This document shows, in pieces, positions 8,266 to 51,230 of a stretch of 64,000 nucleotides of DNA. Source of the DNA: Vulcanisaeta distributa JCM 11217 (GTDB lineage Archaea; Thermoproteota; Thermoprotei; Thermoproteales; Thermocladiaceae); assembly GCF_001316005.1 (NCBI RefSeq), contig NZ_BBBJ01000005.1:62001-126000 (forward strand), given 5' to 3'. The notes below the pieces were generated by a model. That model had not been told where the DNA came from. It worked only from the letters and a program-made list of their open reading frames with translations, and made no database searches. Position 1 is the stretch's first letter, and each line of letters begins with the position of its first letter. Position numbers and translations under genes: made by a program.

Positions 8266-9580
8266 GTGGTTGATGTCGTGATAATCGGCGCAGGGCATAA
8301 TGGATTAGTGGCAAGTATAGTCCTGGCCAGGGCTGGGCTCGACGTACTCGCTCTGGATCATGTGACTTGGCCTGGTGGTTTGGCTGGTTATCACGTTGTT
8401 GGCGGTGTTGAGGTGCCCATAGGGGGCCTACGTACTTGGCCTAATACCCAGCGACTTAATGAACGAGTTAGGAATAAACGTTGACCAGTACAAGCCGGAA
8501 CCTATAGCAGTTTACGTAAAAGACGGTGAATTGGTTAGGTGGTGGAGAGGTTTTGAGGATAGGGTTCGTGAGTTCAATAGGTGGGGCCTTGGCGATGACC
8601 TAAGGGCTATGTGGGGTAAGATCGTGAGTTTCCATAGGGCATTACGCAAGTACATGTATAGGTTGGACCCGCCAAGTAAGGACGAATTACTCAATGACCC
8701 AGTGCTGAGTGAGTTCATTAGGTTGAGGGGGGGTTGGGAGTTCCTTAGCCAATACCTGCCCAGGGAGTTTTGGGATATGTTCATATTCGAGCCTTACCTA
8801 GACCAGCCAGCCTTCATGGTTGGTTATTACAACCCCGACACTGATTGGTGGTTCCCTGCCAAGGGTGGTGAGGTTGGTATGCAGGTCTTTGCGCGTGAAC
8901 TATACAATGCCGCCCTGAGGGCCGGTGCTAAGGTGGTGCTTGGCCTGGGCGTTAAGAAGATAATCGTTGATGGTGGGAGGGTCAGGGGGGGAGTGCTCAC
9001 TGATGATGGGAGGAGTATTGAGCGAGAGCCGTGTTATCCACGGCAAGCCCAATAAATACATTGATTAACCTAGTTGGTGAGGAGTACTTCGATAAGTCGG
9101 TGATCGATAGGCTGAGAGGCGTACCCCCTGGGTGGTGCGTCTAGGTTGGTCATTGTTAGTAATGAACCAATTAAGTTGAGGGGGGGTGAGTTAAATAATT
9201 ACAGGGACTCAATCCTACAATTACCCTTTGGCGAAACAGTGGTTCATGGTAATTATCTAATAGTCACGGGTCTACCAACTAAAGATGAGCTCGGTGAGTA
9301 CGTCGACATTGACTGGTCGAGCATTAAGGCCTTTGAATTAATAACGCCGAGTGATTACGAATCAATATTTAGGTTGGCCGGTGGAAACCTCAACCACTTA
9401 CCAATGACGGAGGATTACATGTTTAATAATAGGCCTGTACCTGGTTGGGGCTACTCAACGCCGATAAGGGGCCTTTACCTGGGTGGTGCAGGTACATGGC
9501 CTGGTGGACAGGTGACTGGAGTGCCTGGTTACAACGCGGCGAGGAAAGTACTCAGTGATTGGGGGGGTTCGCTGAGGTGA
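8266..9580 (+). CDS. Phytoene dehydrogenase-like FAD oxidoreductase (frameshifted)
   Basis: N-terminal FAD motif VIIGAGHNGLVASIVLARAG and C-terminal PIRGLYLGGAGTWPGGQVTG mark the phytoene desaturase/amine-oxidase-like flavoproteins of the NAD(P)/FAD-dependent oxidoreductase group. The substrate is unknown. Three indels break it as assembled: G5 at 8422-8426 (four G restores PIGAYVLGLIPSDLMNEL), loss of a G near 9022 (GAGGCG expected), and C5 at 9124-9128 (four C restores VPLGGASRLVIVS). The restored length is about 440 residues, normal for the family. The start is GTG at 8266. It overlaps or nearly touches the pth2 gene, suggesting one transcript. Confidence 0.7.
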
Positions 9581-46838: not shown

Positions 46839-47873
46839 GTGCCGTTAATTGTTGTTGTCGGTGGTTGGTTCGGCGATGAGGGTAAGGGCAAGGTAGTGTC
46901 CTACCTAGGACTTGCGGATAAGCCAAGTATTTGCATTAGGACGGGCTCCATAAACGCTGGGCACACGGTTAATTATAATGGGAGGACTTGGAAGCTTAGG
47001 ATATTGCCGTCATGCTTCGTTAATAAAACAACGAGACTCATGATAGCGCCAGGCGCATTGCTTAAGATTGATGTTTTATTCAAGGAGATTGAGGAGACAG
47101 GTAGCAGGGGGGGTAGGGTTTGGGTTGACGCTAATGCGGGCGTTATTGAGGATAGGCACGTGGAGAGTGAGAGGAGTAATGAGTATTTAATGAAGGTCAT
47201 TGGTTCAACAGGTCAGGGCGTGGGTGCGGCAATGGTTGATAGGGTGTTGAGGGTTTTGAAGACTGCCAAGGAGTTTCCTGAGCTCAGGGACTTAATAACT
47301 GACGTTAGTAAGGAGGTTAATGAAGAGTTGGATAGAGGCGGTGAGGTGATTGTTGAGGGTACGCAGGGGGGGACATTCCTAAGCCTTTACCACGGCACGT
47401 ACCCATTCGTAACCTCCAGGGACACCACGGCAGCCGGCGTGATTAGTGAGGTTGGTGTTAGCCCGAGGCTCGTTAGTGACATTATCCTGGTGTTTAAGGC
47501 ATACGTTACCAGGGTTGGGGGGGCTGGCGAATTACCCGGTGAGTTGAGTATGGAGGAGGTCGTTGCCAGGGGGGGTTGGGCTGAGAGGGGGGGCACGGTC
47601 ACGGGCAGGCCCAGGCGCGCCGCGCCATTTAACATGGACCTCGCCAGGAGGGCTGTCATGCTTAATAGGCCGACCCAAATAGCCATCACGAAGTTCGACG
47701 CATTATTCCCAGACGCCCGCGGCAAGAGGAGGTGGGCTGACCTACCTGTTGAGGCGAGGAGGTGGCTCGAGAACGTTAGTGAGGCGTTGAGGGTCCCAAT
47801 CACGTTAATAGGGACTGGGGGGGAGGATTCCATGGACATGATTGACATGAGGCGTGAGGTGATGGGTCCATGA
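46839..47873 (+). CDS. purA: Adenylosuccinate synthetase
   Basis: Condenses IMP and aspartate with GTP. The 344 residues match the short archaeal form. N-terminal [17 protein letters not shown] holds the P-loop and catalytic Asp; [41 protein letters not shown] and [10 protein letters not shown] follow. At three places the sequence has one Gly more than the conserved motifs: EGTQGG (usual EGTQG), RVGGAG (usual RVGAG) and RGGTVTGR (usual single Gly), all at G7 runs (47366, 47517, 47587). The start is GTG at 46839. The next gene overlaps by four bases. Confidence 0.92.
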
Positions 47874-49303
47874 TCTATGACGTGGCAATAATAGGTGGTG
47901 GCCCGGCAGGCCTGTTTGCTGCGTATGAGATTGTGGAGAATGCGAGGGACGTCAGTGTTATATTGATTGATAAGGGTTACATGCCGAGGCAGAGGCATTG
48001 CCCGTTAGCTAAGATTGGGAAGTGCGTGTGCGTGCCGTGCCACATAACCCATGGCATTGGCGGTGCAGGGCTATTTAGTAGTGGTATCATTAATTTAAGG
48101 CCTGACATTGGCGGTGATCTTCAGGAGATCCTCAATAGTTGGGATGCCGCCAACCTACTCATTGATTATATCGATAGGGTCTTCCTGAAGTTTGGGGGGG
48201 CGCCTCAGGATAGGGTCTTTGAGCCTAAGGGGGGGTCGGCCTTTGAGGAATACCAGAGGGCATTAGCTCGGGTTGGTGCTCAGTTAGTGCCCATTAGGCA
48301 GAGACACATTGGCACTGACGGCTCTACCAGGGTTATTGAGAACTTCGTCTCGTACCTCACGGAAGCAGGTGTTAAATTCGCCATTGGCACTGCGGTTGAG
48401 CATGTCGAGAAGAGCAACGGAAACTTCCTACTAAAGACGAGGAGAGGCGTTATTGAGGCCAGGACGGTCCTAATAGCGCCTGGTAGGGCTGGTGCTGAGT
48501 GGTTTAGGGATGAGGCGAGGAGGTTGGGTATTGAATTGATGCCTAACCCACTGGATGTTGGCGTTAGGGTTGAGGTCCCCCCCAAGTACGTCATGGACCC
48601 AGTGACTAATCTATACATGGACCCAAAGATCATAATGTACACGAAGTCCCATGACGACAAGGTCAGGACATTCTGCGTTAACCCAGGGGGTTTCGTGGTC
48701 ATGGAGAGGTATGACGATGGTACGGTTGGTGTTAATGGGGAAACTTACGTGGATAGAAGGAGCGGTAATACAAACTTTGCATTACTAACCTCTATCAGGC
48801 TCACGGACCCAATGGAGGACACCATCGAGTATGGTAAATCAATTGCGAGGCTAGCCACGAAGCTTGGTGGTGGTAGACCAATAATCCAGAGACTTGGCGA
48901 TCTCGAGGATGGTAGGAGATCCACGTGGGATAGGATTAGGAGGAATGTTATTGAGCCGACGCTGAAGTTCGTGACGCCGGGCGACATTGGCATGGCATTG
49001 CCGCATAGGGTGCTCGATAACCTAATGGAGTTTCTCCACAGAGTTGATAACGTAATACCTGGACTCGCCTCAAAGTACACCCTACTCTATGCACCAGAGA
49101 TTAAGTACTACAGCATGAGGGCCGTAGTTAATAGGTTCATGGAGACCACGGTAGATGGCGTATTCGCTGCAGGAGACGGAGCAGGGCTTTCCAGGGGGGG
49201 CATAAACGTGGCGGCAGCCACAGGCGTACTCGCAGCGTGGGGGGGAATACTCACGAAACTCGGTAAGGAGGTCAGGAACGAATTAATAAACAAGATAAAG
49301 TAA
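47870..49303 (+). CDS. FAD-dependent dehydrogenase (COG2509-like)
   Basis: The 477 residues start with the FAD Rossmann motif [19 protein letters not shown] and have [28 protein letters not shown], and the C-terminal FFAD-type [20 protein letters not shown]. Uncharacterised FAD dehydrogenases of this family are widespread in archaea; the cysteine pair C-V-C-V-P-C near residue 50 is a candidate redox or Fe-S site. Translation is coupled to purA by an ATGA overlap. At least six G7/C7 runs lie in it, and the frame is intact. Confidence 0.7.
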
Positions 49304-51086: not shown

Positions 51087-51183
51087 GCCCCGGTGACCGA
51101 GAGGTCGAAGGTGCTCGGCTGCAGTGACGATTTTATATGCAGGAACCGAGTTTTCCCGGGTTCGAATCCCGGCCGGGGGGGCT
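51087..51183 (+). tRNA. tRNA-Cys (GCA) with intron
   Basis: The 5' acceptor is GCCCCGG, followed by TG and a D arm, anticodon stem CTCGG/CCGAG with loop CT-GCA-G/A, variable loop TTTTC, T arm CCGGG-TTCGAAT-CCCGG and encoded CCA (51184-51186). A 20-base intron (51125-51144) sits after position 37; a four-base helix CTGC/GCAG with three-base bulges cut AG^T and GA^A forms a classic BHB motif. Three extra G are present in the 3' acceptor strand: the pairing needs CCGGGGC but seven G (51175-51181) are seen. As assembled the stem could not form, so the extra bases are probably false. Confidence 0.85.
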
Positions 51184-51230
51184 CCAGTCTTCGTGGTTCT
51201 TGTGGGCTTTTTGGTGGGTCGTGTCTTGGT

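Follow-up and report, generated by a model that had tools for sequence, protein, structure and literature searches.

Flow-based sequencing (Ion Torrent PGM, 454) is prone to homopolymer length errors on both strands, together with further single-base indels at other sites and a low apparent completeness. The draft genome of Vulcanisaeta distributa JCM 11217 studied here shares each of these traits. It departs from the described pattern in that its run-length changes are almost exclusively overcalls, are confined to G and C runs of at least four letters and mostly amount to exactly +3. JCM drafts of 2014 were assembled with Newbler 2.8 from PGM reads (PMC4064037, PMC3961731), and the V. souniana JCM 11219 draft (BBBK01000000) was also sequenced by Ion Torrent PGM (PMC9872577). 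GnNiGn repeats, up to several hundred, have been noticed in three archaea that are evolutionarily distant from one another, and were excluded from analysis (PMC8044849).

The closest counterparts of the gene considered here are the tRNA-Cys(GCA) genes of other Vulcanisaeta, which possess an intron between positions 37 and 38. Anticodon, intron site, D and T arms, U73 and encoded CCA are alike, the sole difference being three additional G residues in the acceptor strand of the V. distributa JCM 11217 gene. U73 is a known cysteine identity base. Our analysis leads us to regard the resulting G7 run as almost certainly an artefact of sequencing or assembly, the tRNA itself being ordinary, essential and intron-bearing, its acceptor stem perfectly paired in the cell.

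The tRNA-Cys(GCA) gene

The gene lies in a 64-kb stretch of the draft (hereafter the window), and the features discussed are collected in Table 1. Residues 51087-51180 scored 41.7 bits against the Rfam tRNA model RF00005 (gathering score 29). The 5' acceptor strand (51087-51093) is GCCCCGG and the 3' side reads GTTCGAATCCCGG-CC-GGGGGGG-C-T-CCA, placing T at position 73 and encoding CCA. The anticodon reads GCA, within a stem-loop (CTCGG-CTGCAG/A-CCGAG) that is split by the intron after position 37. Bulge-helix-bulge-like pairing of CTGC with GCAG flanks the intron, and the same arms are paired in the unspliced fold. Judged from sequence, fold and orthologues together, the intron is of archaeal type and occupies the usual archaeal place. 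Orthologues are present in seven Vulcanisaeta genomes; their introns occupy the same site but differ in length and sequence. The D arm appears to contain a compensated A10-U25 pair where relatives have C/G. ARAGORN did not detect the gene in the whole window and misread the anticodon when given the cut-out, failures for which the intron and the additional bases are presumably responsible.

Table 1 Features of the window discussed in the text.
Feature	Position	Strand	Basis or remark
tRNA-Cys(GCA) gene as read, with three additional G	51087..51185	+	5' end to encoded CCA
Intron TGACGATTTTATATGCAGGA, 20 nt, between tRNA positions 37 and 38	51125..51144	+	sequence reading
G7 run in the 3' acceptor strand, treated as a +3 artefact	51175..51181	+	relatives without run excess have G4
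Two genes with 11 seven-letter runs, each +3 relative to orthologues	46839..49303	+	alignment with orthologues

The preliminary description of this DNA had proposed that the acceptor strand carries three G too many and that their removal yields a perfect stem. Both statements agree with the bases: GCCCCGG calls for CC-GGGG-C whilst the draft reads CC-G7-C, and omission of GGG restores a stem of seven base pairs. As read, only six acceptor pairs form and the first base is left unpaired. The spliced molecule folds with a minimum free energy of -36.1 kcal/mol (z -0.3 relative to shuffles) with the three G and of -39.3 kcal/mol (z -2.5) without them; only the shorter form is clearly better than its own shuffles. 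Comparison with related genomes, which had been suggested as a check, gave CCGGGGC in the tRNA-Cys of all six relatives without a run excess, and seven acceptor pairs in these relatives. The only other G7 tRNA-Cys among the Vulcanisaeta orthologues belongs to V. distributa JCM 11216, itself an affected draft (see below).

A second, intact tRNA-Cys(GCA) gene would have allowed the copy in the window to be a decayed or alternative one, and the assembly (19 contigs, 2.08 Mb) may be incomplete, with an estimated completeness of 67%. However, no second tRNA-Cys(GCA) was found in this genome, where the gene is present once; it is undamaged in the D arm, the T arm and the pairing around the intron, and many other tRNA genes of the genome contain the same +3. 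We therefore consider decay of a redundant copy extremely improbable. A second, intact gene together with reads confirming seven G had been named as grounds for rejecting the preliminary description, grounds that the search did not supply; but when the only copy of an essential tRNA has a broken stem, an error in the sequence is indicated. An additional tRNA-like match, at C6:5795, turned out to be a tRNA-Thr(CGT) that likewise carries G7.

Conceivably, the seven G could be real and the transcript trimmed to a six-pair acceptor stem with G73, and the Rfam alignment of the sequence as read does contain six acceptor pairs. Such trimming would nevertheless discard U73 and waste the encoded CCA, and would leave 132 other long runs unaccounted for; it hardly deserves credence.

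Run lengths in the window and in relatives

G and C runs in the window numbered 1204 of length 3, 70 of length 4, 21 of length 5, 8 of length 6, 121 of length 7 and 12 of length 8, the tRNA-Cys G7 being one of the 133 runs of seven or eight. A and T runs were normal, declining smoothly to length 7. GGGGGGG occurred 145 times on the two strands of the window, compared with 16.9 +/- 5.2 in dinucleotide shuffles. Other Thermoproteales genomes, sampled as stretches of 16-40 kb each, contained essentially no G or C run of at least seven, and relatives from the same genus or order, sequenced elsewhere, possessed at least twice as many 4-runs per base as the window. Thus, G and C runs, unlike A and T runs, depart from the spectrum seen in relatives, and do so across the genome and on either strand.

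Alignment with orthologues defined the size of the change. The two genes of Table 1, an adenylosuccinate synthetase-like and an FAD-dependent oxidoreductase-like open reading frame (putative names taken from the translations), span 2465 nt in the window and 2432 nt in a complete genome of V. distributa type (G008), a difference of 33, or 11 x 3. All 11 seven-letter runs in this segment face four letters (GGGG, GGGN, GGNG etc.) in relatives without the run-length spike, leaving a gap of exactly three. Over 52 kb of alignment to the complete genome, a pure 4-run stood opposite the 7-run in 52 of 55 pure pairs, and a 4-run of the draft remained a 4-run in 35 of 36 cases. The net offset of 7-runs relative to this genome was -3 in 77 of 98 cases, -2 in nine and -1 in seven, a spectrum which implies that most expansions preserve the frame and add one residue while about a fifth do not. 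A small sample from Thermocladium gave the same sign, with five of eight seven-letter runs at -3 relative to another species of the genus. The orthologous runs are therefore of normal length in independently sequenced relatives.

We looked for features that might determine which 4-runs are lengthened. No flanking rule emerged among the 30 positions tested, of which only downstream positions 2 (p 0.013) and 10 (p 0.031) differed, no better than chance, and the lengthened runs showed no clear clustering along the window.

Other tRNA genes of the genome

The preliminary description had also presented the acceptor strand as a case of the run effect in RNA, beyond the reach of codon frame and protein selection. 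That the effect extends to RNA genes and is blind to codon frame was borne out: a G or C run of at least seven, in the 5' or the 3' strand, was present in 25 of the 37 tRNA genes of the genome. The 3' strand is expanded in tRNA Thr-GGT, Asp, Phe, Tyr and Cys, the 5' strand in tRNA Glu-CTC and Arg-GCG and both strands in Glu-TTC. Intron helices are hit on either arm, one tRNA gene having G7..C4 and another G4..C7. In the Cys, Thr, Asp and Tyr genes, the 5' CCCC was kept at four while the 3' GGGG was lengthened, a selectivity that counts against an artefact.

Distribution of the affected drafts

A scan for the G7 acceptor pattern GTTCRAATCCCGGCCGGGGGGG took in about 85,000 species of Bacteria and Archaea, with the window's own genome left out. 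It matched only Thermocladium modestius JCM 10088 (BBBF) and V. distributa JCM 11216 (BBBI). The run-length spike was likewise common only to the JCM 11217 draft and these two (G020 and G003, respectively), whose identity with the scanned entries rests on equal coordinates or counts. Among 398 Thermoproteota genomes, many G7-N-G7 pairs scattered over both strands were found only in the two V. distributa drafts, matches in other genomes being mostly single long G tracts. The whole T. modestius JCM 10088 genome (completeness 47%) contains paired G7/C7 runs on both strands and 369 matches to G7-N(1,2)-G7, more than either of the other two drafts.

The run effect as a biological phenomenon did not withstand these comparisons. 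It is confined to three drafts from two genera whilst close relatives of each lack it, it strikes both G and C runs, whichever the strand, but never A or T, and the affected Vulcanisaeta drafts disagree over which orthologous 4-runs are longer. This last disagreement, in which shared 4-runs are often lengthened in one draft but not in the other, argues against common descent of the runs.

A genuine lineage-specific expansion of G/C tracts by replication slippage, arising for example from a mismatch-repair or polymerase defect and leaving tRNA-Cys truly mutated, would be consistent with the predominance of +3, which largely keeps reading frames, and with the occurrence of two affected genomes within one genus. 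Slippage should, however, generate graded lengths, as opposed to the observed gap at 6 and peak at 7, and it gives no account of the unaffected A/T runs, of the absence of the spike from other members of both genera or of the lengthening of orthologous runs in one affected draft and not the other. It would furthermore damage most tRNA genes, including the sole tRNA-Cys. We accordingly judge slippage very unlikely. There is a further scenario in which the runs are truly seven long: some process adds three bases to GC homopolymers of at least four in certain cultured archaea, whose tRNAs tolerate or repair the insertions. This, too, seems extremely remote. Two of the three drafts are known JCM drafts, and the trait tracks the sequencing project, not the lineage.

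The repeats excluded in PMC8044849 were treated there as idiosyncratic. All three archaea concerned are JCM strains and T. modestius, whose draft shows the spike in the present analysis, is among them. A tabulation of quadruplex frequencies also lists T. modestius JCM 10088 (PMC7565180). Published surveys of archaeal G-quadruplexes thus already contain the artefact. Its recognition removes a false biological lead, and a spike at 7 in the G/C run-length spectrum provides a simple test for faulty public drafts that stand as representatives of their species. In affected drafts, in-frame additions of GGG or CCC give proteins spurious extra residues, some reading frames are disrupted and most tRNA genes look defective.

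Origin of the lengthened runs

The artefact reading rests on the run spectrum, on the +3 offset from relatives, on the occurrence of the spike in just three drafts and on the sequencing of a sister draft by PGM, BBBK being near BBBI in the accession series. The JCM 11217 draft is probably an Ion Torrent PGM/Newbler assembly of the same JCM series. On the artefact reading, G and C homopolymers of at least four were called too long, mostly 4 as 7 and 5 as 7 or 8, with the majority of runs of four or five affected, and GGGG of tRNA-Cys was written as GGGGGGG; the step responsible may be the base caller or the assembler.

Noise in flow signals does not usually yield an exact +3 with no tail, and confinement to G and C likewise counts against the artefact reading. 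Our guess is a faulty per-nucleotide homopolymer recalibration acting only on runs of at least four, which would leave runs of up to three and all A/T runs untouched, as observed; confinement to G and C would be accounted for only by this idea. A literature search returned no paper on G/C-specific PGM overcalls or on recalibration turning 4 into 7.

Single-base losses

Single-base indels were frequent outside the long runs in the alignment to the complete V. distributa-type genome, in keeping with the low completeness of the JCM 11217 draft. They included losses of one base in GG, CC, GGG or CCC at window positions 9023, 16856, 18793, 26834, 42059 and others, which are likely frameshift errors where they fall within genes.

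T-stem strands of tRNA-Val CAC, tRNA-Ile and tRNA-Gln of the same draft are one or two bases short in GC palindromes. In the 3' strands of the T arms, CCCGGCGGG is read as CCCGCGGG, and ATCCGCCCGG stands in place of the expected ATCCGGGCCCGG. Undercalls thus occur beside the overcalls. The tRNA-Cys T arm of V. distributa JCM 11216 and of a further genome (G002) reads AATCCGCCGGGG, compared with AATCCCGGCCGGGG in other Vulcanisaeta, the same loss of two bases. The latter genome has a normal run spectrum and a completeness of only 63%, and may be another error-prone draft.
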